Shown here in pieces: positions 1-16,717 of a DNA stretch of 64,000 bases. This DNA is from Romanomermis culicivorax. Its lineage: Eukaryota; Nematoda; Enoplea; Mermithida; Mermithidae. The notes under the pieces were generated by a model that did not search any database, had not been told where the DNA came from, and was given only the letters and a program-made list of their open reading frames with translations. Made by a program: the position numbers and the translations under genes. The stretch's first letter is position 1, and each line of letters opens with the position of its first letter. Location of the stretch: the NCBI GenBank assembly GCA_963922205.1, contig CAWUHX010000030.1, positions 248,001 to 312,000 on the forward strand. The letters run 5' to 3'.

Positions 1-1925
1 CCAACAATCATAATAGCATTAATAATATGGCCGCGGCAAAGGAACTATTAACTGCTGAAGATAGAGATGCTCAAATTATTGCACCTATCGATAGAAGGCC
101 GAAATTGGCTGAGGATCAAATTGATCCATTTATTGATCAAATGAAAGATGAATGTTTGTGACAACCTTGACAAGGATTTGATACGTATCATGGAGAGTAC
201 ATCAATCATAATTTTGATATGGTTCGAGATGATTACTGTCTTGATCCATTGGACAAATTATGATTCGAAATGAGCCAAAAGGACAACAAAATCGGATGAT
301 TAAATGTCGAAATTGATAAAATGGCTGATTCAATAATCGGAGTCCAAGTTCTATTGGAAAAGTTCGTCCTGGATCAAAGGGAACAGGATATCTGAGTGAG
401 TAGGACTAGTGATAGACCATTGCAAACTCAGAGTATAAGTGGAACTTTGCCAATGATGTCTGCAACCTGTATTGCCAATGACCGAAGGTTAGGGCAGATG
501 GAAGTGGATGGGTCAGAGCAAAAGTTCACAGTCAAACCTGGTGTGAAATCAAGGGTTTCTACCGAAAAATGGGTAGCTGAACTGCTTGCTGTTTGAGAAC
601 AAGCAAGTGATATAGTTGCTCAATTTCTCCAAGAGGCTGATGAGGAAGCAGCAGGCAGTTATCTGGAAAGCAAACATACTACATCGAAGCACAAATGATC
701 CAAGAAGTCCACATGAGGAAATTCATCAGATTCTGATGACTCCTCAGTGGATGGATTGGAGCCTACTGTGTCAGATATAGTGAAGGCTGTAAAGCCAAAG
801 CTACTCCTAGATGACATGACTGAAACACAAGTTCTCAGTTTCCTAAATGATTTAGAAGCAGAGTTTTTATCAGAGACTACCGAAAAAAGGAAGCTGGCTG
901 CATTACAAGCACTTTCTAAGGGAGTACTGAAAGCTACTGCCAAAAGGTTCAAGAGTTACCAAAAAGCCTGAAGAAAGTTACTCAAAGTGCAGGCTCCAGA
1001 TTCAAATGTCAGAATGCAAACTAGGGAACTGATGAACATAAAGTCGGTGTTTTATGAACCTCCAGTGAAATTTCTCAAGAGAATTAGTGTGCTAGTGAAC
1101 AGATTATATCCTAATAAGACTGAAGAGTTCAGAGATCCCTTTATTATTGATACTTTTTTGTATAAGGCATCTGCGGAGTATCAGATGGAACTGCTGGATC
1201 AAAGAGATAAGTATGAAACATGGCATGATCTGGCAGAGGATGTCCACAAGATAGATAAGTGGAATACAGCTGCTTATAAAAAGAGATGAACTGCGGAATC
1301 TCCAATTGTGATAAATGAAGTGACCATGGGTGAAGGGCAAGCTGAAGTGGCTTATGTTGGTAGGAATAAATTTGGCAAAGCCCCACAAAGGTAGTTCCAA
1401 AATAAAGCCATGGGACAGCAAGCAAGGAGAGAGAAGAAAATCTGATCCTAGCCTTAGAAAAGAAGGATTCCGATACTTCTGTAGAGGAGAATAACTCACA
1501 GGGGACTCAAATGGCTACTACTCCCCAAAAGGGAAAAGGGCCTGAGGAACCTAGTAGTGATTCTGTTCTAGCAAAATTATCACAGGAGATTATGAAGTTG
1601 ACTCAATGTTATCAGGAGATAAGCCAAAAGACTGATGCCAAATTGAATGAAATTTCTGCCAAAGTTAATAAGGGCAAACCCCAAAAACCTGGTGTAAAGG
1701 AGTTCAGGAAACCATATTGTCGATACCATAGAAATAACTCGCATGACATGTCCGAATGTAAAACCCTTCAATGGAAAAATGTGCAAGGACGTAATTGGGA
1801 TAATCAATATGGTATGTTGGCTATGTTGGAGGATATATTGGCGGGAGCAGTAGAGGAGCTCATGCCCTAGGTTATTATGGTGATAATGTGGATTATGATA
1901 TTTATCAACAATTCACTGTTTACCA
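1..1925 (+). pseudogene. Decayed gag region of a Ty3/gypsy-like retroelement
   Basis: The plus strand carries a retroelement Gag broken by many in-frame stops. Readable blocks are 396-596, 747-971, 987-1289 and 1511-1870. The middle blocks look like a capsid region rich in charged helices. The last block holds a cysteine/histidine knuckle of the form C-x2-H-x4-H-x4-C (CRYHRNNSHDMSEC) near 1708-1755, as in many invertebrate and plant Ty3/gypsy Gag proteins. The start lies outside the window. The stops show this copy cannot make a full Gag. The placement before RNase H and integrase supports the assignment; the exact family is not determined. Confidence 0.7.
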
Positions 1926-2074
1926 GAATAGATTATAGAATGAGCAACTCTATATGGCACTACATCTGCCACCGCCTAGCCAACAGCTGATGATCACAAC
2001 TCCCCCTTAAGGTCAGGTTCAAATCAGTAACCCTAGCCCAAGTGTTCAAGTCATTTCCAGTAGTTTTGGATGGA

Positions 2075-2963
2075 GTCCTGTTTTGGATGGAGCTGCTGAG
2101 TTTGTTCTCCGAACAGATGCCAGTGGAACAGCACTGGGAGCAGTACTTTATCAGAAGACTAAAGATGACCATTGGTAATAGCCTATAGCAGCCGAATCCT
2201 TAAGGAAGATGAGAGGAAGTGGTGTGCTACAGAGTGAGAATGCCTAGCAGTTGTCTATGGTCTTAAAGTTTACCAGCACTATTTGTTTGGACAAAAAGTA
2301 TTGATCAAAACTGATCATAAACCTCTTTTATCAATGAAAGTCAATACTCAAACCAATGATAAATTGAAAAGATGGTATTCAATTATAAATCAATTTAATC
2401 ATAGATTGGAGTATGTGCCCCGTAGACAAAATGTGATGGCTGATTTCCTCTCAAGGAAGGATGAACACGAAGATGCTAAGGATAAGAACCCACCAAAATG
2501 GGAATATGTCTTCAAAATTCAATTTCGTAATTCTAGAACTCAAACCAATGAAATTGAAAGCCAAGAATTGGTACAACAATTTCAGAGGATAAGGGACGAA
2601 GAAGTTGAAAGTAGAGATGAAAAAGTTGTCCCTAAGCAGACCAAGGAATTGATGGATATCCAGGAATTGATGGTAGGAAAGGAGAATATTGCACCAACTA
2701 CCAAAGATACATTGCAGATCAGAAATGAAGTGCAGAAGCTTACGGTAGTTGATGCAGTTACAACTAGAAGACAAGGAAAAATTCAGGATCAGAGTGCAGC
2801 AAATCAAAAACTAGGTACATCAGTACCAATTGATCCTAAAAATATTGCTTGGCTTTTCCCAAACAGAGAAAAAGAATTTGAAGAGGTGAAAGAAGGAGAA
2901 AATGATGGAAATGATGATGATGATAAAGTCAATTATCCAATTGACTTAAAAGTTATAGCTTAA
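2075..2963 (+). pseudogene. RNase H and linker of Ty3/gypsy pol, reverse transcriptase missing
   Basis: The translation shows the Ty3/gypsy RNase H hallmarks in order: TDASGTALGAVLYQ near 2105-2150, YSSRILKEDERKW near 2180-2215, a TDHKPL block near 2310-2325, and an RRQNVMADFLSR end near 2420-2455. At least two in-frame stops interrupt the front part, and 2283-2963 is open. No protease or reverse transcriptase motif (no YxDD) lies between the gag knuckle at about 1750 and this domain, so an internal deletion has removed them. After RNase H follows an acidic linker of about 150 residues. It is non-autonomous and not functional as it stands. Confidence 0.8.
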
Positions 2964-4063
2964 TTGAAAAAAGAAGACACTAATCTTACCCCTATTTGGG
3001 AAAAATTAGGTGTCAAAAGCACTATGAAGTATCATAGTGGATTCTACGAGGATAATGGAGTTCTTTATAGGGAAACTGAGCGACATGGTCATGATCAGAT
3101 CATCGTCCCGAAGTCCCTCAGAGACAGCATTCTTCACCAATATCACGGACCCATTATAATGACACACCAAGGGTTCAAAAGAACTCTGAGTGTTGTCAAA
3201 CAGCGGTTCTGGGGGCCTGGCATTGAAAAAAATGTCAGAAATTGGTTGAAGTTTTGCCCTGTCTGCCAAGTGGCTACTCTGGGTAAAAGCTCCATATCCC
3301 CATTGATACCCATTATACCCGAGGGTCCCTTTGATATTGTGTCTGTAGACACAGTAGGGATTGCTCCCTTGAGGGAATGTCACCTATATGTCATTGTCTT
3401 TCAAGATTATTCCACTAAACGGGTTGAAGCTATATTAATTCCTGATCAGACAGCTTAAACCATAGTGGATGCATTCTTAGAGCATGTAATATTTAGGCAC
3501 TGTACCCCAAGAAAGCTTCTTAGTGATAATGGATCTAGATTTAATTCAGAAAAATTTCCACAACAGCATACCACCCACAGGGTAATGGTATGGTTGAGAG
3601 ATTTAACCAAACTCTAATAAAGCAGCTGCGAAAAGTAGCAATTGAGGATAACAACAAATAGCCAAGGTACCTCAGCGCAGTGGCATTTGCATATAATGCC
3701 ACACCCTATGCAGCAACAAAATGTTGGCCATTTTCACTGCTGCATGGGCATGAAGCTAATTTTGTTATCAATTTCACTGCTGCCCTTAGAATAGTCATGC
3801 CTAATGACTATGAAGCTTACAAGTATGTTTTGGCTACCCATCTTACAAATTTGTACAAAAGTATCGCCGAAAACATACAAAAAGCTGCTAAGGACAGCAA
3901 GAAATACTTTGATGACAAAATTAAGGCTTCTGGTTTTAAAAATCAAGATTGGGTTATATTGAAAGTTGACAGACATAAAAAACTGGGGTTACCTTGGCAG
4001 GGACCATATATCATCATTGATGATAAAAGATTGAAGGAGAATGTGCTCACAATAGTGCATTGA
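2964..4063 (+). pseudogene. Integrase of Ty3/gypsy pol, broken
   Basis: The order matches a retroelement integrase: an H-H-C-C zinc-binding region (HQYHGP... H ... CPVCQ near 3135-3270), a catalytic core with VDTVG near 3345 and SDNGSRFN near 3520 (two of the three acidic residues), and a C-terminal block with a GPYIIID element near 4000, like the GPY/F module. Stops at about 3457 and a frame change near 3550-3680 break the core. It lies directly after the RNase H block on the same strand, in the usual pol order. Confidence 0.8.
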
Positions 4064-5745
4064 AACAATCTGCTTAAAAAGCAGGTTGCATGGGCAAGTA
4101 GGCTAAAACACTTTCGATACGAAGTTACCAGATGGTCTTGACACGAAAAGTTGCAGGTCTTCTGGGATACTCCAGTTACTGTAACTGGAAATCTTGCAGA
4201 GACTGAAGATTATCCAGTCATTATTTCTGTGTCTTAAAATTTTTAGCAGAAAATACTGTATAGGTGTATTTTTTGTGAATAAAATTTTCAATTTTTGTGT
4301 TATTTAACCTATTTATATTCCTTTAATACCTTTTTTAAATTTGTTTAGCAAACGGTCAAATTTTCAGATTGATATTGTTAATTTGTGCACCTGATGCTAA
4401 AATTTTTGGTTTACATTTTGGGGAGGTTTACAACCATTTTTCATTCTCATTTTCAAGAGTTGTGTTTTCCTTCTGCTCCACACCACAGATTTTTTTCCCA
4501 GCAAAATTTTTGTCCAGCCCAAGGACCGGGAAAATATTTTTGGTAATTTCGTATATTGTATTTATATTGAAGTAACGATGAATGTTCTTTTACATTTTGC
4601 TTGCTTTGGAAAATATGTGAAAATTTTAAAAAATTTAATTGTATTTCTTGATGTCAAAATTAGGCATAGCCCCATTCGTGCAAAATTATTGTGTGCAGGC
4701 TGATCACGTGAAGGCCGACCAACCGCAAGGCCACCAAAATAACCAATATTTTTTGACCGACCGTAAATTTTATTTAATTATTGTTTGGTAAATGAGATGA
4801 ATTTGCCCATTTAGGTGTCTTAGGAATGATTTCTTCACGCTGAATTTTCTGAATGGGCCAACCAAGGGGAAGATGAGTTCGAAGAAAAGTTTCTAAAAAT
4901 GTTAGGATAGGTGAAAAGAAAAAACCTAATTGATTTACAGCCCTAAAAAGCCAAAATCTAATGTTTTTTAACTTGGATCTGATTCCGAAGCATTTATTTT
5001 TGGTATTTATTAAAGCCCCTGGTTTACTAAATTTATTTCTTGACTAATTAAAACCTTATTTGGTTATTTATTCATCATTCAATTTTGGTACCGAGGCATG
5101 GAGTTATTGCTAGGGTGTGGTAAATTGACGGCGGCTGATCTGGAGAAGCAAGAGGTGGTCCAAATGTGAGGTTCCTGAAAAATTGGTGTAGCATTGCCTT
5201 AATCACTGGGCCTGCTTACTTTATGACTTTGACACCTAACCTATCTAACTAATTTATTTTCCCCCATGCTAAATCTTTTTTTTCTTTCCATTTTGGTGCT
5301 GGTCAATTTAGGTTATTTAATTGGTGGCCTAATGCTTGATTTTTAAAGGGTCAAGGGGCAAATATTTTTTGATTTTTAGACTACAACATCAAACGTCTGG
5401 TCCAAGTTGGCGAAATCAAACAATGGTTCACTGGCGCCATAGGATATTGGCCGCAAGGACCAATGGAGCCGGAAGGGGTCTATTTGGTTACGCTTGCATG
5501 ACAAAATAGGATCTCCAATTTCAACAGAAAAAGCAAAGGACAATATAACCCATAATAGGGATTATTGGGCCAATTGCTTTTTCTATATAAGGTTCTACTA
5601 TGCAGAATTCAGAGCCAAAACCCCGTTGCTGCGATATGGCCTGGCACCAGACATGCCTACTCTGCAAAATTAGATGTATACCGGCTGATTACCTGATGTA
5701 TACATATGATTTCCTGAAAAGTTTATTCACTGGAGGCCTCTGCCG
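4064..5745 (+). other. Noncoding retroelement flank (possible LTR/UTR)
   Basis: No gene is seen here. The stretch lies between the integrase end and the next gag-like ORF, where an LTR and leader would be expected. I could not find a second copy in the window to define LTR ends. A TATA-like element sits near its right end, about 160 bp before the next ORF. Confidence 0.35.
5584..5590 (+). promoter_or_regulatory. TATA-like box upstream of gag-like ORF
   Basis: TATATAA is followed 156 bp later by the ATG of the gag-like ORF at 5746. The position fits a retroelement promoter inside an LTR, but in AT-rich DNA the match alone is weak. Confidence 0.3.
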
Positions 5746-7528
5746 ATGGAATTACCTATGGTTACCTATACTTATGGTAACGAAACCAAACAATCTGATT
5801 TCAGGATGAAATCTGATATACTTGACCCTGATGATGAACCAACAGTTCCGTCAGGTCAAGTGGATGAGGACATCATGGAATTAGAGAGTGAGGAAGAGGT
5901 AGATTCCGCACTCCAGGGAGAGAAAAGTTGCCAACAGGTTGATCCTGAAGACGCACTATTGTATATTTCTATCGCTGACCCCGAGGTAGCTGAATCAGCA
6001 ATGACAGCATCTTCTGTTATGCAGCTGCAACGGCAAACACAAGTTGTGACCCAACTGCAGACAGAAATGTTGCCACCACCAGGCTTACCTACACCACAAG
6101 TGATACAAGCATCTACTATGGATGCAAGTCAGTACTTGTCCACTGTAGAAAGTCAGGCTCACTCGGAAGAAATTCCGATTGCCCAGGATGAGCAGAACAT
6201 GTATGGCCAAGCTTACATTAGTCAATACATGGATGCCAAAGGTGCAAAAAAGAAGGAGCAAGACCAGACAGCTGGGACACCTATCCATACTGTGGTGGAA
6301 ACACCACAAGAGTTAGCAGCCCAGCTGGCTGAAGAAGATAAGGAAATTCAGGTTTTGGCCTTGACCTGGGATGTAGAAGGTGTTCCTGGATACTATACTG
6401 CTGAGGCTATAAAAAATATGAAAGAAAAAGGATTAAATGATAGGCAGATTTTTGTTAACTTAAAAAAGAAACTGAAAACAAAAGCCTGTCAGGAGAAGAA
6501 AAAGGTAAAAAAAAAACTTTTCCAGTTTCAGCAACGGTATCTGTGACCACCATATCTTCAACTACTCCTATGTCGCAGACTGCCTCTACAGATATTTTAT
6601 CTACTGCTACAAGTCCCTCCACACAATTTGTGTCACAGGCTACAGACACCTCTGCTTCCGGATGGCATCAGCCTAAGGTGCAGGGAGCTCCTAGCAAGCC
6701 ACAGGTTGCAGGACAAAAAGTTCAAATCTTTACACCTGGAAAAATAAAGCCCTTAACTCTGGTTACTGTTGACACAAATCAACAAACACCAGAAATGATG
6801 GTGGACTTATTCTGGGATGTATTGTTGGATTTTTGGCAAGTTACCAAGGATAAAAGTAAAGCCAGAGGTCTAATTTCTTTTGCTACATTGGATTGGCTAA
6901 TTTGTTCTGCAATGAGCAAATTGAAGATCCAGAGATTTGGCTGATGGTCAATAAAGCAGTGAGGACTATATACAAACTGTATCAGCCACAGTTTGATGTC
7001 CAAGGAGGATTTTTATACAACTTGCGAAATATTCCAGAGCCACTATGGGATAGGATCATTAATGAAATTGTTCTTGAATGGCTCACAGAATATCGAGCGA
7101 ATGTCGTATTTGGAGCAGTCAGATATTTGTGTTTAATGATATTCCTTATGCTTGACTATGCGCCGCTTGTGGCTGAGCAGATTGGTAAATGATCAGTCTC
7201 AGCCAAAGTGTTCACAAACGTCATGCTGTTACAGGAATATCAGAGTGCCACTGCTTCTGATGTTTTTAAGACTGCCTATCGCTTGGTGATGTATAATTAC
7301 AGTCAGCAAGTGGCGGAGATGGATGTCAAAAAGTCAGGTAGCCCAAGTCCTCTGACTACTGCTAAATTTAGCAAAGTTCAGAATGATGCGGGACAGACCT
7401 TTCGGGCACCCAGACTGGCAAGTAGTCAAGCTGGTGGTCAAGGAGCCATGGTTTGTGTAACCAACCAGGTCTCCACTGGCCCCAGTATTGGCACTGGGCA
7501 AGCCTCCAGAACTGTTCCCAAACAACAG
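5746..7528 (+). pseudogene. Gag-like ORF, 5' part, split by the LINE insertion
   Basis: An open frame of 266 codons (5746-6546) is Gln/Glu/Thr-rich and acidic. It continues after frame changes as 6543-6944, 6893-7192 and 7208-7528. The later part is helical and capsid-like, and ends in a proline/glutamine-rich stretch (PKQQQPI). The protein reading resumes across the LINE at 13444 with the same Q/P repeat, so the LINE landed inside this ORF. It shares no clear similarity with the gag at 1-1925, so it probably belongs to a different retroelement. The frame changes mean it is decayed. The exact class is not recognised. Confidence 0.55.
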
Positions 7529-7536
7529 CAACCTAT
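7529..7536. repeat. Target-site duplication, left of LINE
   Basis: CAACCTAT directly abuts the LINE poly(A) tail (seen as T on the plus strand). A perfect copy sits at 13436-13443, right at the LINE's 5' end. The last T is shared with the T-run. Confidence 0.85.
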
Positions 7537-7985
7537 TTTTTTTTTTTTTTTTTTTTTGGAAAACAATTTATCATGACACGAAAAACATCAATAAACAATA
7601 TAATATCTACGAGATTATAGGCGAGAAAAAAAAAATTCTTTTCCATAAATTTTACATATATCATATAACAACGAAACTTTTGAGATTGGATATTCGCCAA
7701 ATTTTTTCCCGAGGCGTCTTTAAAACAGAAACATACGATTCTGAATATAAATTTAAATTATACACTGAACTCCTTTGAAAAAAAACAAACAAAGAAAAAA
7801 CGTAACTCTAAATGGAGGAAATAAACTTACCAAAAGATGCATAAAGAAAACACCAAAAAACGAATTGCTATGAAATTGACGAAAAAGTTTATCCTGAAAG
7901 TATTAAAAGGATGTTCATAACGGATTAAATAATGAGAAAAAAGAGAAAAATTATTACAAATACATACAATATTGGGGTAAGTGGC

Positions 7986-10900
7986 CTACATAATTAGTGT
8001 TATCTTATACCTGCTTTTCTTACAAATTTTATTCTTCAGAAAAAACGATTCAAAAGTTTTGTTTTCTAAAATTTCAGATTGCCTCATAATCAATACTTGA
8101 AAATTTTTCCTAAAAATTTCCCAGGGATCTTTCAATTCATTTTTCTTTTCGTAAAACATTCTTGACTGCCAAATACTTTTTTGAGAAGTACAAATTATCA
8201 GATTTAACACTACAATTTTCTCACGACTTGCATATCTAGGCTTTACACCAAAAATGAAATTTTCAATATTCATATTTAAATCCTTGTCTATGCCCTTCAA
8301 GGCTATAGCAATTTTGATCCAAAAATCTGTTATTCTAGGACAGAGGGCAAAAATATGATAAACATCTTCTCTTTCAGATCTGCCTTCATGTAAACAAAAC
8401 TTACAACTTGCATCGAAGTTTGGGTCCATGTGATTTATTTTTGATCTGGTCAACAGAAACCTGTGAATATTTGAAAATCTAATGTTTCTCCCATATCCAT
8501 CTAAAAATTTAACTGGACTACAAGTTAATAATTCTAGAATTGTTTTCCTAGGTACTCCAATTTTATGTTCCCAATAATCAGTGATTTTTGGTTGGCACTT
8601 TTGTACAATTTTGTCTAGAATTATAAGATAAAATACTTTTGTAGAAACATGATCCAAATGAAGAGATCTCCCTCCTACTTCAACTACATTATTGTTTAGG
8701 AACTGGAACTTCGTATCTATCTCGGCAGTTCTGATCCTCTTATATAACTCAGGGACTTGCATTCTTGCCAACTGTCTTTTTGACTTACTTTTTACTTTAT
8801 CTAAAAAGAAAAAACTAATATCAAGATTCCTTTTTTCCATCTTTATCAAAAGCATCAAATTCATTGCTTCAATTTTTGAAATGACATCAACCATACCTAT
8901 ACCTCCTGCATTGGGGGGTAATTTTAGCTTCTCAGTTGCTACTAGATTTCTATTAGATCTATTTGACCAGATAAACTTTGTGGCAAATTTTTCAATGTAT
9001 TTAACAAAATCCGTCTTTATATCACAAAACAAGGCTGAATACCATAGTTTAGACAAAAAATATGTATCAATAATTTTAGCTCTGGCATAATATGAAATTT
9101 TACTTGATGCTAGGTTTCCTCTAAATTTACTGATTTCTTCTTTCAATGCTTTAACATTTTCATCTTGTTCAGCTCCCTGCTTATTGAAGTAGATTCCATA
9201 GATTCTCATCTTTTCAACAAGGAAGTCTTTATATTCATGTGGAATATTTTCTTTCATGTCACCAATGCAAAGAATTTTAGTCTTTTCTTTTTTCAAAGTA
9301 GCCCCAGAGGCTTTTCTGAACATTTCATACACATCAAAAATTTTTCTGACTGATTCATAATCTCTCAAGAAAAAATTTGTATCATCAGCATAACAATTTA
9401 TCTTGAATTCTTTCCCTAGAACTTGTAATCCTCTTATTAGACTATTTTTCCTGATGTGATTGCATACTGTCTCTGATACAAGCACATAAATCAAAGGTGA
9501 TAATGGACAGCCTTGTCTTATTCCTCTGCTTACATTAAATGGAAAAGTTTCATAGCCATTCACCAATAATGATGATTGCAATTCCCCTAAATTATAAATT
9601 ATTTTTATCCATTGTATGAATTTTGGATCAAAGTTGAAAAAAGCTAGAGTATCAAAGATATAGTCCCATTCAACAATGTCAAAAGCTGACATGTGATCTA
9701 CTGATAAAATTAAAGCTTTTTCTTCTGTTTCATTTTGATAATGAATCAGATTATAGATGGACAACAATCCATCTCTGATATCTCTTCCTTTCACTGCACA
9801 TGTCTGGTTTTCATCTACAATGTCAGGCATGATACTTTTCATTCTATTAACCAAGATTTTTGCCAAAATTTTATAATCAACATTTAACATTGTTATTGGT
9901 CGCCAACTACTTCTTTCAGACTTATCATGTTCTCCTTTATATATCTGAGATATAATACCATGATACATTGTATTAGTCATTTTACCTGAATCATATATAA
10001 TAGAGAATAATGTCTTCAATATAGGTACCAAAGAATCAATAAACTTTTGATAATACTCAATAGGAATTCCATCACTTCCAGGTGATTTTCCTTTCTTGAA
10101 TGAAAAAATTGCCTTTCTAATTTCTTCTTCTGAAAATTCTTCTCTGAGTAACTTGTTTTGATCATCAGAAACCATTTTAGTTGATTTTTCTTCCAAAAAA
10201 ATTTGTTTGTGTTCTCTACTTGTGCCAACTGTTTTGAAAAGCTTCTCATATTGTCTTCTATACTCTTCTAAAACTTCTAATTGATCCTCTAATATATTAC
10301 CATACTCTGTCTTGACTGAAGTTATTGTTCTATTCTCAGCAGACCTTTTTTGCAAAACTTTTGCAGTTGCAAGTGAACATCTATCAGCAAGAATGTCTTG
10401 GTAATGAGTTTTACTCAGCTTTTCATTAATTAGACCCTTGATCACTATTTTATACTCATTCTTAACTTTTCTATATTCTTTTCTCAATCCCATATCCTGA
10501 TTATTACATTTCAATTTTTCTCTTATCTCATTCATTTTGTTTTCACAATTCTTCCTTATTTTAAAATTCTTCTTATCAATTTTCTTTTTGAGATATATAA
10601 AATCCTGCTTTATGTTTACTTTGAAATTTTCCCATTTATTAATTAAGGATTTGCCTGAAGTGTCCGTAAGATCTTCAAAATTTTTCTCAAAAGAATTTCT
10701 AACTTCTTTTATGATCTCATTTTCTTTTGTACTAAGATAACTACTATTCATTTTCCAAAAAGAAGGCCCAAATGTAACTAGCAAAAAATTTAATTTGATA
10801 GTTACCATAAAGAGCTTGTGATCACTTATTCCTAGATCAAGTACTCTGTAGTTCTTGAAAGAGTCAGACAAAAATCTTGTTGTGTAAATTCTATCAATTC

Positions 10901-11516
10901 TTGAAGCAGATTTATGAGCATTGGAAATATGTGTGAAAATTTTCAGCTTTGGATGGTTTAGTCGAAAAATATCATACAATCCCAGCTTACTTTTCACAGC
11001 CTCAAACTCTTCTTTTCCTTTTTCTTCTTCTTTGAATCTGAATGAATCTCTGTCAAGAAGACCACACTCTGTAAAATTGAAGTCACCTAGGATGATTGCC
11101 TCATCGTGATGCCTAAAGGAATCATTAATTTTTTTGTAAAGACTGTCATAAAAATTTGCTCTGTCAGCTTCTTTCGCAGGAGCATAGATTACCATAATAT
11201 AAAACTTTTTCTTTTCCAGTTCTGCAAGATATGCTAGTACCCTGCCTTTCATTTCAAAAACTTTTCTCTTCAATTTTAGTCTACAAGTATGGTTAACTAA
11301 GAAAGCTATACCAGTACAGTTTGTGTCAGCAGAAGAAAGTTTATAAGCAAAATTTTTCTCAAAAGTACACTTAAATAGGAATGAATCTTTTTTAGTTTTA
11401 AAATGTGTTTCCTGTAAAGCTAGAATATCTATATCTTTTGTTTGCTCATAAATTTTGCTCAGTTTCAAATCATTCCTCAATAACCCTGCACAGTTCAGAG
11501 TCGCTACTCTGAGCAT
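7986..11516 (-). CDS. LINE ORF2: APE endonuclease-reverse transcriptase
   Basis: This ORF encodes 1176 aa and is uninterrupted. Residues 1-245 form an APE-like endonuclease: N8, QETH at 35-38, YAP at 111-113, GDFN at 144-147 and an SDH near 230. The endonuclease nicks the target DNA. The reverse transcriptase follows at about 450-780, with a GKSPGSDG block, WRPI, an acidic SVDHMSAFD motif near residue 606, RGIRQGCPLSP, and the catalytic YADD at 709-712. Near residue 1036 a C-x2-C ... H-x4-C motif (CKFC ... HIFALC) matches the zinc-like region of related LINEs. All listed catalytic residues are present. The start is the first ATG, 92 bp after ORF1 stops. Confidence 0.95.
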   Translation of the reverse strand: MLRVATLNCAGLLRNDLKLSKIYEQTKDIDILALQETHFKTKKDSFLFKCTFEKNFAYKLSSADTNCTGIAFLVNHTCRLKLKRKVFEMKGRVLAYLAELEKKKFYIMVIYAPAKEADRANFYDSLYKKINDSFRHHDEAIILGDFNFTECGLLDRDSFRFKEEEKGKEEFEAVKSKLGLYDIFRLNHPKLKIFTHISNAHKSASRIDRIYTTRFLSDSFKNYRVLDLGISDHKLFMVTIKLNFLLVTFGPSFWKMNSSYLSTKENEIIKEVRNSFEKNFEDLTDTSGKSLINKWENFKVNIKQDFIYLKKKIDKKNFKIRKNCENKMNEIREKLKCNNQDMGLRKEYRKVKNEYKIVIKGLINEKLSKTHYQDILADRCSLATAKVLQKRSAENRTITSVKTEYGNILEDQLEVLEEYRRQYEKLFKTVGTSREHKQIFLEEKSTKMVSDDQNKLLREEFSEEEIRKAIFSFKKGKSPGSDGIPIEYYQKFIDSLVPILKTLFSIIYDSGKMTNTMYHGIISQIYKGEHDKSERSSWRPITMLNVDYKILAKILVNRMKSIMPDIVDENQTCAVKGRDIRDGLLSIYNLIHYQNETEEKALILSVDHMSAFDIVEWDYIFDTLAFFNFDPKFIQWIKIIYNLGELQSSLLVNGYETFPFNVSRGIRQGCPLSPLIYVLVSETVCNHIRKNSLIRGLQVLGKEFKINCYADDTNFFLRDYESVRKIFDVYEMFRKASGATLKKEKTKILCIGDMKENIPHEYKDFLVEKMRIYGIYFNKQGAEQDENVKALKEEISKFRGNLASSKISYYARAKIIDTYFLSKLWYSALFCDIKTDFVKYIEKFATKFIWSNRSNRNLVATEKLKLPPNAGGIGMVDVISKIEAMNLMLLIKMEKRNLDISFFFLDKVKSKSKRQLARMQVPELYKRIRTAEIDTKFQFLNNNVVEVGGRSLHLDHVSTKVFYLIILDKIVQKCQPKITDYWEHKIGVPRKTILELLTCSPVKFLDGYGRNIRFSNIHRFLLTRSKINHMDPNFDASCKFCLHEGRSEREDVYHIFALCPRITDFWIKIAIALKGIDKDLNMNIENFIFGVKPRYASREKIVVLNLIICTSQKSIWQSRMFYEKKNELKDPWEIFRKNFQVLIMRQSEILENKTFESFFLKNKICKKSRYKITLIM

Positions 11517-11608
11517 ATTCCCTTGCCTAGCAGTTGTTGGAAAAAAATAAAAGAGCTAAGTCAAAAAGTTTGAATCAATGCAGGGTTAGAAAATTCTGAC
11601 CAGAATAC

Positions 11609-13108
11609 TTAGATTGTAGGCCGCTTACTATCATTTACATCAGGTGATAAAACTTCTGGGCCTCTTTTAACTTGCCCATTCAAAAAACGAGTTGACGGCT
11701 CTGCTTCTTTTTGAAAATCAACATTCGATCGCATCTCGTCCCGTAACTTCATCAAAATTTTGCCGAAATTATTTGCTCCCCAATTATTGCAGTTGTTAAT
11801 ACGAGGGTCGTCCATTCGTATACCGATACCCCAATATGGATCAAACGGGTTTGTTTCGACTAATTCGTAATCGAGCGTATTAAATAAGGCACGACGTAAA
11901 TGCTTCGACTGGGAATATTTATACCAATTTGCCTCGTACAATGTCCTAGAAGCAAATTCGGCCCAAGGTGTTGTCGGGTTGCTCCAATCGAATTGTTCGC
12001 CAAGTCGCTTCGCTATGGCTGCGTTATCACAATTTATAATTTGATTTTCTTTCTCAGGAAGATTCATTGCGCTGGCTTTTTGAGCAAATAGATAATGTTC
12101 GGTACTCTTATAAGTTTGACCATGGACGGTAAATTTACACGGGAAATGGTTCGACAAAATACATTTGTAGGTATAGAATGGTATGTAGTCCCATTTTTTT
12201 TTCGACATCAATGTGAAATTAAATAGATCGGGGTAATTATTCATCGACGTGTTTTGTTTTTCTTCGACATTAATTTTTGAAATTGGTAAATCGGAGTTTA
12301 CACTTGCTATTGATGAACTTTCTGAAGTTGTTGGATTACGTACTTGTGTTGTCGCGGTAACAGATGCGTAGGATTTGATGTTTGTCGGTGGTTTAGGAAG
12401 ATTTTCGTAAGTAACGCTGCAATCTTTCCGCATGTGGCCCGGCTGCATACATTTTCGGCAATAAGTCTCCATGCCATAAAACCAGAGTTGTAATTTAATA
12501 GGTTTAATCATCGGTTGAACGTGGAACCAAACAACACCAGGGATTTTAATTTCTGGTGTAATCTCGATTTTAATAGCGCGAACATTTGAATGGATCAATT
12601 TGCAGTCTTTGATTGGCAAAAATTTTGTATTATTATCTTCTGCAATTTTAAGGCCAGGAAATTTAATAGTTAGCCAATTTTCTACTTCAGAATGTTTAAC
12701 GTATTCGGGTATGGTATTACCATATAAATGTCCTAAGTTTAGAATTTTTGTAATTCGAGATGGACGTGGCTTGATTACTTCTACTTTCAAGTTGAATATA
12801 TTATATTTCATCATTACGGCTTGATCACGCTTTTCTCGTGTCTCGAAATGGAGTTTTAACGTATTGTTATTTAGCATGGATATATTACTGGGCAAAATAT
12901 CATTAGCATTTTTCGTTTCGAGTTCGACGCAAATATTAATTAATGTCTTTTTCTTAAAAATTTCATTATTCAAAGATATAAAACCAATTTTACCGCTTTC
13001 AGACTCGTATATTTCTCGCGGGGTCGGCGTATTATTATCCACCGGACCAATTTCGTCTAAACGCATTGGGGCTTGATCCCCATCTTCTTCATCGCTGTTG
13101 TCCGCCAT
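11609..13108 (-). CDS. LINE ORF1: zinc knuckle plus NADAR (YbiA-like) domain
   Basis: This ORF encodes 499 aa, intact. Residues 30-200 resemble the RNA-binding front of Tx1-type ORF1 proteins. A CCHC knuckle (CRKCMQPGHMRKDC) lies at about 216-230, followed by a Ser/Thr-rich linker. From about 300 to 458 lies a complete NADAR domain: LSNHFPCKF, then YKSTEHYLFAQKA with the family's conserved glutamate, the W/R/A/K helix region, then VETNPFDPYWGIGI and NWGANNFGKILMKLR. NADAR proteins are known to remove ADP-ribose from guanine or process related metabolites. A C-terminal basic tail follows. The fusion lies in one frame without introns. What the domain does for the element is not known to me. Confidence 0.93.
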   Translation of the reverse strand: MADNSDEEDGDQAPMRLDEIGPVDNNTPTPREIYESESGKIGFISLNNEIFKKKTLINICVELETKNANDILPSNISMLNNNTLKLHFETREKRDQAVMMKYNIFNLKVEVIKPRPSRITKILNLGHLYGNTIPEYVKHSEVENWLTIKFPGLKIAEDNNTKFLPIKDCKLIHSNVRAIKIEITPEIKIPGVVWFHVQPMIKPIKLQLWFYGMETYCRKCMQPGHMRKDCSVTYENLPKPPTNIKSYASVTATTQVRNPTTSESSSIASVNSDLPISKINVEEKQNTSMNNYPDLFNFTLMSKKKWDYIPFYTYKCILSNHFPCKFTVHGQTYKSTEHYLFAQKASAMNLPEKENQIINCDNAAIAKRLGEQFDWSNPTTPWAEFASRTLYEANWYKYSQSKHLRRALFNTLDYELVETNPFDPYWGIGIRMDDPRINNCNNWGANNFGKILMKLRDEMRSNVDFQKEAEPSTRFLNGQVKRGPEVLSPDVNDSKRPTI

Positions 13109-13164
13109 TTAACATAAATCCAAAAAATAAGTCATTGAAGAAATATGAACGTTCGATTCGATGT

Positions 13165-13400
13165 TTATTTTTCAAATCGATGTAAATCAAAGTTGATGCC
13201 ACAAGTAGCTGTGGGTCCTTGTGGCAATAATTTTTCAAATCGATGTAAATCAAAGTTGATGCCACAAGTAGCTGTAGATTCTTGTGGCAAATAAATAACT
13301 TGATCAGCAAATAAGTTAAAATCGGAGAAATTCAAAGTTGATGCCACCAGTGGCTGTTGATCCTCGTGGCAAATAAGTAACTTGATCAGCAAATAAATTA
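13165..13400 (-). repeat. Three tandem repeats in the LINE 5' UTR
   Basis: Three diverged units lie at about 13165-13229, 13230-13310 and 13317-13400. Each contains the block TCAAAGTTGATGCCAC, a short arm of the form GTAGCTGT or GTGGCTGT, and CTTGTGGCAA or CTCGTGGCAA. The second and third also share CTTGATCAGCAAATAA. Tandem 5' UTR monomers act as promoters in some L1 elements; here that role is inferred. Confidence 0.8.
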
Positions 13401-13413
13401 ACGTTTTTCCGAT

Positions 13414-13435
13414 CTTAATATTTTAGGGTAAAAAC
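13414..13435 (-). other. 22-nt leader-like 5' end of the LINE, shared with NDC1 retrocopy
   Basis: On the minus strand this begins GTTTTTACCC and ends ATATTAAG, and it directly abuts the 8-bp target duplication. It is therefore the true 5' end of the transposed RNA. The same 22 nt occur at 16696-16717 at the start of the NDC1 retrocopy, followed there by unrelated sequence. The match stops exactly after 22 nt in both directions. Confidence 0.75.
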
Positions 13436-13443
13436 CAACCTAT
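13436..13443. repeat. Target-site duplication, right of LINE
   Basis: CAACCTAT matches 7529-7536 perfectly and marks the LINE 5' boundary. Confidence 0.85.
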
Positions 13444-13678
13444 ACAGCATCCACAGCAACCTATACAGCATCCACAGGGTGCTAGGCGAGCTCATGGAGG
13501 ATGGGGAAGGGGTGCCCAACCAGGCCAGTTTCATTTTAACAATCCAAACAGGGGTAGAGCTGGTTATGTTGGTGGCTGAGGTATATACTGAGGACAACAC
13601 TCTCATGGTGCATTCTGAGGTCACAGAGGTCATCAACAAGGCCAGCAGCAAGGCCACTGGCAACAACAATAATTTTTA
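13444..13678 (+). pseudogene. Gag-like ORF, 3' part after the LINE
   Basis: This continues the Q/P-rich reading interrupted at 7528 (CAG CAT CCA CAG codons), then turns glycine/arginine-rich (HGGWGRGAQPG, NPNRGRAGYVGG) and ends Q/H-rich. Several in-frame stops are present. An RG/Q-rich tail suggests a nucleic-acid-binding Gag C-terminus. The split is explained by the LINE and its 8-bp target duplication. Confidence 0.5.
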
Positions 13679-14966
13679 GCTACAAAGATTTCGGTCCAAA
13701 ATCCTCCATTCTTGATTCACATTTCATTTATTCAAAAAATATAAAAACATAATAAAATCACAAAAATCCAAAAACATTATAAAATACAAAAATACAAAAA
13801 TATCATTTGAACTTTTGGTTGTGTTGTTGCTCAAAAATCTCGTCTTGGCCAAGCTCATCGCTTGAGTCCACTTTTTGGTTCAAATTTTTCACTTATTTTT
13901 TGGTCATATTATGTGCCTCGTATTTTGTGCCTTTCATTGTTATCTTTTTTTTCTTGTCAGTATTTTGCCCTGTGTGTTGTATATTTTATTTTCTTGTCAT
14001 TTTGTGCCTCCTATTTTAAAAATTTTTGCTCAATATTTTTCACCCATACTAGTTTTGTAAATACTGGTCTGCCATTTAGTATTTTAATTTTTTCATATGA
14101 AAATACGTTGGCAAACCAAAAGAGTTAGAAGCGGATGACAGTAGCTGATTACTGCAGGGATTGGGAAGCTGCTACCAAAGACAATCCACATCACTCAATG
14201 GGATGAAATGATTGATTGTGGAGGAAGGTAGCTAGGAGCCTCAAGGCATGCTGGCCGAGCCAGGGAAAGTCAAGCCCGCGCAGAGTTGTCGATCAATCAG
14301 ATGCTGCATCAATGATTGATCATGCCGCAGCATCTCACTGGACAGACCTGGGTAACCTTGTAAAAGACTTGATGTCGGAGGTTGTCATGAAACCGTACAC
14401 CCTTTGGGGTCAGGTCATGACGATTATGACCCATACTCTCTTCGGGGTTGGATCATAATCTTTTTATGGAGTTGAGATCCAGTAGTAGGTCACACTGTAA
14501 AAGGTGAAAGTCCTGCTCACTGTTTCCTTCTTCACCTCCCCTTGGTCAGTTTCAAGGCTGGAGGGATGTTGGGGAAGTACTTACGGCAGCAGTAATCCCA
14601 CATCTATGCAAAATTGGAGAACCCACAAAGTCACAATTCAACCAAGAAAAGGAATGTTTATCATTCTGAAAATTGTTTGGGTTGTGGGTGAGTCACATCC
14701 ATGTACTTTTATTTTTATACTGTTTTGCCCAATAAACTGGAATGCTGACAGCCCAGGACAAGTTGAATAATATTTTCATTTTATTACCATTATTATTTTA
14801 TTATTACTTACTCCCACATTAAGCGGAGGCAGGAGCCTATTTACATGGGATCATTACCAAGGAGAGTCACCAGCTTGCCTGGACATCGGTGTAGTGAGTT
14901 CTTTATATTTGTGTAAACCTTTAGGAAGCATCTGGGGAGAGCCTGATTGCTTTCTGATTGCAAGAG
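13679..14966. other. Noncoding retroelement-like stretch, no gene seen
   Basis: This follows the gag-like C-terminus and runs up to the poly(A) end of the NDC1 retrocopy. Only short ORFs without recognisable motifs occur, and I could not match it to the flank at 4064-5745. It may be the remaining untranslated part of the host retroelement. Confidence 0.3.
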
Positions 14967-14992
14967 TTTTTTTTGAACATTCGAACTTTATT
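14967..14992 (-). terminator. Poly(A) signal and A-tail of the NDC1 retrocopy
   Basis: AATAAA (14987-14992, minus) is followed by 12 nt and then eight A residues (14967-14974). This marks reverse transcription of a polyadenylated mRNA. No convincing target duplication flanks the copy: the left flank ends in AAGAG and the right begins AGTTAC. Confidence 0.8.
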
Positions 14993-16695
14993 ACGACTGG
15001 AATCATTTTCATATATTTACCTAACTATTTCAGAAACCCGCAAACAGACAGTCCCAACTGAATGCACAAGTAAAAAATACAATCCTTTTCGTCAAAAACT
15101 TCGCATTAATGTTTTATGCTCGTCTTTCAGATCGACATTCCATAAATTTTCGCCGTAAGTAGACTTTATACACTGCAAACTTTTGATCAACTCGGTTTTT
15201 AACATCACACGACTAGTGTCAATTAAACGTCGTTTTGAAGTTTCAATACATTGTGTCGTCGATAATCGCCCGAATTTCTCCAATTGCAGGTAAGAGTCAC
15301 AAAAGAGTCCCAGAACGTTTGGTAAGTCAATTTGGACAACGCCTAAACGATCCTCGGTATAGGCGACGCATAAAATGTTACCTAAACCTTCAATAATTCA
15401 TTTAAGCAATTGAACATGATGGAACACGTTTGTTTCGGCCAGAATCTTCTCTAAATCTTGTAACGAACTCTTTTTGGAATCGACTTTACGTAGAATGTCC
15501 ATCTTCGTTGATTCCGTTAAATCTTTGAGACTGAAGGCTGCTTCCCAACGCAAGGCTAATTTGGAATTCACATCCGACAACGTGTTAAGAAAATTTTCTA
15601 TCAATCTTGAACATTCGTTTCTCAAAGCATTCCACGGTCTAGGATGGCCACCGGGACAACTAACTAAAAATACTTGATGTGCTCGAACTTTGTCAATATG
15701 TGTCAGTTGACTGAAGTCCCAAAAAGCTAAATATTGGATCAATTCAATATCATCACAGGCCATGGCGTCCGAAATACTTGGTACAAATAATTCATCGTCC
15801 AAAGCAGTGATTTTATGAACATCCGGCGACGGAATCTCAAACTTATAAGGTTGACACAACCATATATTGAAGGCACACTCCATGAATTTTCGACGGAAAA
15901 TGGTCAATACAAAACATACTAAGGTCAGCCAGGTGATGGAAATTGCATTCGAAATGCTGAAGGGGCTAATTTATAAATTTCCAACTGTATCGGGTAGAAA
16001 ACTCTTCACGGAAGCATCCACGAGATAATGACCAAAAATAAAGTAACTGAAAAGAACTGCGACAAATGCCTTCCAACCGCTCCGAAACAAATAAAGAAAA
16101 ATGCGCTCCGAATTTTCCGTGATAAGATGAAATTTGGGCTTATAATCCGGAAAGTTCAAAATGAAGGCGCCCGAATAGAAATACTGGGAGATGAGTAAAT
16201 ACTTAAGACAGCTATAAAATAATAAGAGACGTATTTTGCGTCCAACGACAAGCTATAACTCAAGTTTGCCAATATAGAAAGCAAAAATATCAAATCGGCT
16301 ACTAAATTGGTCAAAAAATACAGCAAAATCCACGACCCATCTGTCTTCAATTGGAATTTTCACGAGGAACATGAAAAATTCTTCAAACGTGTAAAAACCA
16401 CGGGGAAACAGGTGGTCGATAAAATCACGACCAAGAAAGCATTTAGTGGATCAAAATGTGTTGAAAACACATTTTCTATGAATGTAATCGGATGAAAAAA
16501 CGTCAGCTCTAATAATATAGAACATAAGAATGACGTCGAAATGAAGATAACGCATGATACAACGACTGACTACAAAGTTCGAAAAAGCAAGATCTCTTTG
16601 TGATAGAAATTATCCATAAGTTTGCATATTTGTATCGCCGAACATGAGTCATCTTTGAATGTCATAATAATGTTGATTTTTTTAATTGCGGCTAC

Positions 16696-16717
16696 CTTAA
16701 TATTTTAGGGTAAAAAC
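16696..16717 (-). other. 22-nt leader at the start of the NDC1 retrocopy
   Basis: This is identical over 22 nt to the LINE 5' end at 13414-13435. It is followed on the minus strand by GTAGCCGCAATT and the NDC1 5' UTR, with the first in-frame ATG about 28 nt downstream. It is preceded by RFC1 3' flanking DNA. It behaves as a spliced leader joined to two unrelated RNAs. Confidence 0.75.

Follow-up and report, generated by a model that had tools for sequence, protein, structure and literature searches.

The question raised by this locus is what a NADAR domain does in the first open reading frame of a LINE. The window (the whole stretch of 64,000 nucleotides of Romanomermis culicivorax DNA that was analysed) contains one such element, with the following features:

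7529..7535: target duplication CAACCTA (7 nt), 3' side of the LINE
7536..13435, minus: full-length LINE of lineage A, 5.9 kb, with CAACCTA at both flanks
7536..7557, minus: poly(A) tail, 22 nt (22 T on the plus strand)
7986..11516, minus: ORF2, 1176 aa
9240..9923, minus: reverse transcriptase, ORF2 residues 532-759 (Pfam RVT_1, E 9.7e-35)
10818..11504, minus: APE-type endonuclease, ORF2 residues 5-233 (Pfam Exo_endo_phos, E 7.4e-9)
11609..13108, minus: ORF1, 499 aa, one open frame
11729..12166, minus: NADAR domain, ORF1 residues 315-460 (Pfam PF08719)
12416..12460, minus: CCHC zinc knuckle, ORF1 residues 217-231 (Pfam zf-CCHC, E 0.0011)
12464..13108, minus: ORF1 front, residues 1-215, RRM-like below threshold only
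13171..13397, minus: 5' UTR with three imperfect repeats (repeat search, family D1)
13414..13435, minus: 22-nt spliced leader (SL) GTTTTTACCCTAAAATATTAAG at the LINE 5' end, a sequence shared with 14 SL RNA genes, as their exon, and with an NDC1 retrocopy, as its head
13436..13442: target duplication CAACCTA (7 nt), 5' side of the LINE

The element is an L1-group LINE with two ORFs 92 bases apart, APE and RT domains in ORF2, a poly(A) tail and a target duplication, and it is full length, and intact as the original prediction had it. The best PDB match of ORF2, over residues 4-877, is human L1 ORF2p (8sxt, E 1.2e-76), whereas the best R2 protein in the PDB reaches E 1.3e-13; since ORF2 is far closer to the former, we placed the element in the L1 group. 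The ORF1p of L1 is a coiled-coil protein with no NADAR domain. Two further copies, L039 and L040, align with the window LINE over almost its full length at 99.3% and 97.8% identity. By eye, the insertion site is Gypsy-gag-like sequence, and Gypsy-like reading frames at 1400-7460 and 13436-13680 of the window are split by the LINE.

Within ORF1, the zinc knuckle and a complete NADAR domain do share one open frame of 499 aa, as had been proposed from the letters alone. Pfam NADAR matches at 112.8 bits (E 2.5e-32, cut-off 35.1 bits) over positions 10-163 of the 163 in the profile, and the matched residues, 315-460, compare with the predicted 300-458 or so. In the PDB, the domain matches the NADAR structure 8bau (E 2.2e-9) and YbiA (2b3w, E 1.5e-6). 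The knuckle scores 19.4 bits, slightly under the curated cut-off of 20.8, and its C217, C220, H225 and C230 are invariant in our alignment A1 (17 rows). The front gave no match above threshold, the best non-NADAR hits with the A1 family profile being nucleolin RRM chains (E 0.06-0.29); it is probably nucleic-acid binding, and the earlier description as a Tx1-type nucleic-acid-binding front is plausible. A chance match or a misread frame was rejected on the Pfam E value together with three more unbroken copies at 98-99% identity; including the window copy, four ORF1s are unbroken over 499 aa at 98-100% identity.

By its Pfam score and its counterparts of 8bau E43, K50 and E125, the domain is assigned to the YbiA-type NADAR superfamily. 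Window residues E337, K344, K367, W382, E418, D423 and W426 correspond to E43, K50, K75, W89, E125, D130 and W133 of 8bau, as these are named in the accessible part of PMC11543638, where E43, K50 and E125 are linked to catalysis or the distal ribose and E125 is family-defining. E337, K344, K367 and W382 are invariant in the 17 rows of A1, and E418, D423 and W426 are nearly so, with exceptions that include K at 418 in L040, N at 423 in L029 and S at 426 in L023; the ORF1 of L040 is unbroken despite this replacement. At the positions of R79 and R93 of 8bau, the window copy has E371 and A386. R79, a contact to the ADP-ribose pyrophosphate, is missing from all 12 of 12 LINE rows, and 8 of the 9 non-LINE rows that cover it retain it, while R93, the second pyrophosphate contact, is absent from the LINE rows, yet also from some others. 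Escherichia coli YbiA (2b3w) and the oomycete NADAR (8bau) are like the LINE domain in sequence family and catalytic residues, but they are small stand-alone proteins that keep R79.

These residues bear on the function first proposed for the domain, an active guanine de-ADP-ribosylase that would shield the RNA or cDNA of the element from ADP-ribosylation by the host. The counterparts E337, K344 and E418 speak for it, as does the oomycete NADAR, which has no DarT association and reverses guanine ADP-ribosylation (PMC11543638, accessible part). Because the catalytic residues are mostly kept, the LINE domain may be protective in this manner, but the loss of R79 from every LINE row argues against it, and we regard this role as doubtful. 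A second possibility is that the NADAR merely binds nucleotides or RNA, having been acquired in a single capture and retained for RNP assembly, with enzyme activity irrelevant. This would agree with the loss of R79, with the lysine at 418 in the unbroken ORF1 of L040, and with the varied modules from which other LINE ORF1s are assembled (PMC3905857 and PMC4120745, in their accessible parts). The conservation of E337, K344 and W382, and nearly that of E418, D423 and W426, exceeds the needs of a scaffold, however, and makes a pure binding module unlikely.

To see how far the arrangement extends, copies were sought in the same assembly as the window (359 Mb, 595 contigs). At least 94 ORF1 matches were found (86 of 267 candidates scored), and in 40 of 40 loci, at 38 different places, NADAR sequence follows the ORF1 front, although in some of them it has shifted to a different frame or is truncated where the locus ends; selection was by ORF1 match, and the loci are hence not a random sample. 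A NADAR search of the assembly gave at least 132 matches (150 of 182 candidates scored) and contributed two further loci with NADAR behind the front, a sixth lineage F, for a total of 42 loci at 40 places. Relative to the window ORF1 (lineage A), identity is 51-56% in lineage B, 40-42% in C and 33-37% in D and E, so that at least six diverged NADAR-LINE lineages (A-F) are present in one assembly. Pfam NADAR scores 77.6 to 109 bits in five ORF1s of lineages B, C, D and E. A relative of ORF2 lies downstream of ORF1 in loci of A to E (it is absent in L029 of D), Pfam RT and APE were found in ORF2 of A, C, D and E with the APE score of D barely above the cut-off, and A, C, D and E have full-length open frames for both ORFs; lineage F is known from the ORF1 part of its loci. 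The original prediction held that copies without NADAR would point to a one-off capture. None of the 42 loci, all chosen by ORF1 or NADAR matches, lacks it, and a one-off capture was rejected on its retention across loci of six lineages. A bacterial or viral origin of the window was likewise rejected, the assembly being one of 359 Mb with SL RNA genes and LINEs. Two scans of viral contigs returned no relative of ORF1 or ORF2. As a separate observation made by eye, lineage D copies lie in or near a repeat that resembles a promoter and has CCAAT and TATA boxes (L027, L030, L031 and L038), and L038 apparently holds the L027 target without the interruption.

We then compared the constraint on the NADAR domain with that on the rest of the element, using dN because NADAR dS is saturated in diverged pairs. 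In 11 of 12 pairs, NADAR has a lower dN than the ORF1 front, the exception being the window copy against L040 (A_W vs A_L40), and in five of six pairs it has a lower dN than ORF2, the exception being A vs C (NADAR 0.494, ORF2 0.407). For the diverged, open-frame pair E_L32 vs E_L33, dN is 0.194 in NADAR, 0.351 in the front and 0.218 in ORF2, and between A and D the amino-acid identity is 49% in NADAR, 29% in the front and 41% in ORF2. The dN/dS comparison across copies, suggested with the original prediction, likewise gave, among close pairs, mostly lower values for NADAR than for the front: 0.219 and 0.354 in C_L24 vs C_L26, 0.072 and 0.151 in E_L32 vs E_L34, and 0.372 and 0.456 in D_L27 vs D_L31. 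The order is reversed in A_W vs A_L40 (0.319 and 0.05), a pair with few changes. The NADAR domain in the LINE ORF1 is old and kept; it is a long-kept working part of ORF1 in at least six lineages of one genome and no stray capture.

As to its origin, the NADARs of the LINEs group as a single clade apart from the database and PDB NADARs available for comparison, with support of 99/99, or 97/96 with the C-terminal half only. The only near database relatives found are two fragments of Romanomermis culicivorax, a mermithid nematode, which are 82% identical to ORF1 along roughly a fifth of its length and suggest that the host is probably a mermithid or close to one; the protein searches also returned five other NADAR proteins at 28-33% identity and, by a method that depends on shared 5-letter words, no LINE ORF1 from another animal. 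The literature provides one: according to the accessible part of a 2025 Ectocarpus paper, the ORF1s of several Crassostrea gigas Tx1 LINE families appear to hold a YbiA-family NADAR (PMC12477816), and the original prediction, to which no described LINE with NADAR was known, is not right on this point. The oyster elements are like the window LINE in this NADAR-like ORF1, by that account; they differ in their mollusc host and in that its accessible part describes no SL link, the comparison being one by description. The same source reports NADAR in the Pol of a single Gypsy lineage of Ectocarpus and proposes a contribution to the processing of the RNA intermediates; this too is a retrotransposon with a kept NADAR, but an LTR element of a brown alga with the domain in Pol, unlike the LINE ORF1 here.

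A feature that the original prediction did not mention is the sequence at the 5' end of the element. Its first 22 nt recur exactly at 16696-16717, and these are two exact matches in the window against none in 100 shuffles. The second match heads a retrocopy of a host mRNA:

14967..16717, minus: retrocopy of NDC1 nucleoporin mRNA with SL head, poly(A) end and broken frame
16696..16717, minus: the same 22-nt SL at its 5' end

The retrocopy is recognised by Pfam Ndc1_Nup (E 1.2e-9) across the open stretch 15398-15970. In the assembly, the 22-mer has 79 exact copies and its reversed control none. On contigs C184 and C248, 14 of 14 copies are SL RNA genes, in which the exon is preceded by a conserved block and followed by a GT donor and by the Sm site ATTTTTGA, which agrees with the nematode Sm pattern AT4-6G used in PMC7986045 (accessible part). 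The 5' end of the window LINE is thus identical to an exon that, in these host genes, stands before a GT donor and an Sm site, as in an SL trans-spliced transcript. One SL RNA, L041, has a three-stem fold (z -3.64, with 1 of 200 shuffles equally good). Rfam includes nematode SL families, but it gave nothing in the window at gathering scores, and no match with an E value of 1 or less for L032 and for four of the SL RNA loci, and therefore the SL RNA call is based on gene anatomy.

For 19 of the 79 SL copies, an ORF1 match follows downstream at up to 2.5 kb, and for 18 of these at no more than 600 nt, with 74 of the 94 ORF1 rows entered in this count. Of the 46 copies that are neither among these nor among the 14 SL RNA genes, 24 were examined, and none is an SL gene. 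Among them, L065 and L075 stand at the 5' ends of lineage A and C LINEs, L064, L066, L071, L073 and L074 head one other repeat family, and two more repeats are represented by the SL-headed pairs L047 and L063, and L051 and L054; the rest resemble mRNA retrocopies or unknown sequence. The repeat family of five has an ATG frame beginning MSQSSVTSKRN in four members and is perhaps another retroelement. In L050 and L056, two SL exons stand in tandem at a single 5' end, with a spacing of 81 nt in L050 and with one base missing from the first exon in L056, as though an SL-headed copy had been trans-spliced a second time.

Seen from the LINEs, 19 to 22 of the 22 nt of the SL stand at the 5' end in 16 of the 20 lineage A loci (L001-L020, window included), in three of four of B, where a five-mismatch match in L023 is excluded, and in two of four of C; in lineage D it was found at the 5' end of 0 of 6 copies. 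The sequence right after the AAG of the exon differs between A, B and C, and in the A copy L015 the SL is joined farther down the A leader, at another AG. That LINE copies are made from SL-bearing RNA is well supported. As ordinary mRNA retrocopies bear the same exact exon, there is a strong inference that A, B and C would have acquired their SL by trans-splicing.

Lineages E and F are related to the SL in a different way, in that the E copies L032 and L033 and the F copies L085 and L086, which are the four C184 matches listed in the NADAR search, lie inside the SL exon, behind the upstream block of the SL gene. Past the poly(A) of L032 and L033, the SL gene picks up again with the end of its exon, the donor and the intron, which gives a 15-nt duplication TACCCTAAAATATTA, and a scan of the genome for the E-type 3' junction returned exactly these two. 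L085 and L086 share 1693 nt without a difference, their flanks are 96.7% identical, and they may represent either one copied insertion or two. Insertion in the SL exon is seen for these two E and two F copies only, the window copy lying in the Gypsy-like sequence. The ORF2 of L032 has an APE domain (E 4.5e-10) rather than an endonuclease of the restriction-like type. Two E copies are inserted elsewhere. L034 has SL exon sequence at its 5' end and a 3' flank that matches the target at only 12 of 17 places, suggesting that E RNA can start at the promoter of the SL RNA gene; L035 has CCCTAAAATATT immediately after its A run, and its 5' SL copy may therefore be a target duplication.

The insertions in the SL exon and the exon sequence retained by L034 could also mean that the 22-nt head of A-C is a terminal motif, fixed after an ancestor lived in SL exons and copied by transcription starting there, but this is improbable, since the full exon also heads the NDC1 retrocopy and other mRNA-like sequences, ending exactly at the splice donor, and the sequence right behind it differs among the three lineages.

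The anatomy by itself, a LINE with a NADAR ORF1, SL-bearing ends and copies in SL exons, is in our view very nearly certain. With relatives headed by the SL or inserted in it, the NADAR domain may serve the SL RNA-processing pathway, which suggests a role different from, or additional to, the protection proposed earlier. To our knowledge, SNA-3 is the sole NADAR protein known in animal RNA processing. It is essential, has three NADAR domains and is required for SL1 trans-splicing in nematodes (PMC9303266, accessible part). SNA-3 of Caenorhabditis elegans is thus a likeness, as a nematode NADAR protein tied to SL trans-splicing; it differs as a host gene with three domains, where the window ORF1 has one Pfam NADAR stretch.

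In the mechanism that we favour, the RNA of A-C elements would gain the SL by trans-splicing, and that of E may start at the SL RNA gene promoter. ORF1p would coat the SL-bearing RNA by means of its front and its knuckle, and its NADAR pocket, in the manner of the SNA-3 NADARs, would act on either the SL-bearing 5' end or the splicing complex at that site, whether through binding or through cleavage of an N-glycosidic or ADP-ribosyl bond; this is the weakest step, and we lean to it because an essential NADAR protein, SNA-3, works at that end. We give the whole chain, including the action of NADAR on the SL-bearing end or its machinery, a probability of roughly 0.4, as the leading mechanism. 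The wider proposal, in which the life cycle of the LINE clade would be built on the host SL, through trans-splicing or through the SL promoter after APE-driven insertion in the exon, with an ORF1 NADAR of the same family as SNA-3 coupling the RNP to the SL machinery, we judge rather unlikely in its entirety.

Several results stand against an SL role for the domain. Lineage D copies keep NADAR without the SL, ORF1 has a single NADAR against three in SNA-3, and the kinship of the LINE NADARs to SNA-3 is unsupported: the nearest host fragment, on C341, adjoins the LINE clade at 54/15 support, in a row joined from two open stretches. This fragment (L082) and two further non-LINE NADAR genes, L081 (C32) and L077 (C182), look like intron-broken host genes, and all three are candidates for SNA-3 or its relatives. 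The higher dN/dS of NADAR than of the front in A_W vs A_L40, with E418 missing from the latter, the higher dN of NADAR than ORF2 in A vs C, and the SL RNA genes unrecognised by Rfam also count against it. So does the fact that we know of no SL trans-splicing in molluscs. NADAR-like ORF1s are nevertheless reported from oyster Tx1 LINEs (PMC12477816, accessible part).

As far as we know, the only LINEs that target SL exons are those with restriction-like endonucleases. Nematode LINEs of the NeSL group share with lineages E and F the SL exon as an insertion site, but they are classed with the restriction-like-endonuclease elements, whereas an APE endonuclease and NADAR are found here (PMC4640811, accessible part). 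SL-tagged retrogenes are known in dinoflagellates (PMC12014239, accessible part). The accessible parts of the open-licence literature contained no report of a NADAR LINE with SL ends and none of an APE LINE in SL exons. The novelty is partial: NADAR-like LINE ORF1s were already reported in oyster, and the spliced-leader link is new here, together with lineage E as an APE-type LINE in SL exons. It puts a NADAR domain in the setting of SL-bearing RNA and SL RNA genes, where SNA-3 works, and the function of eukaryotic NADARs thereby becomes testable by a retrotransposition or trans-splicing assay.

Lastly, we noticed a difference in composition between the two frames, compared in the window ORFs plus L024, L025, L027, L028, L032 and L033. 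ORF2 is strongly CpG-poor, with an observed/expected ratio of 0.17 in the window copy and of 0.32-0.48 in those of lineages C and E. No such depletion is seen in their ORF1 (1.50 in the window copy and 0.99-1.46 in C and E, against a window mean of 0.92). In lineage D, the ratio is similar in both ORFs (0.67-0.70 and 0.74-0.76).
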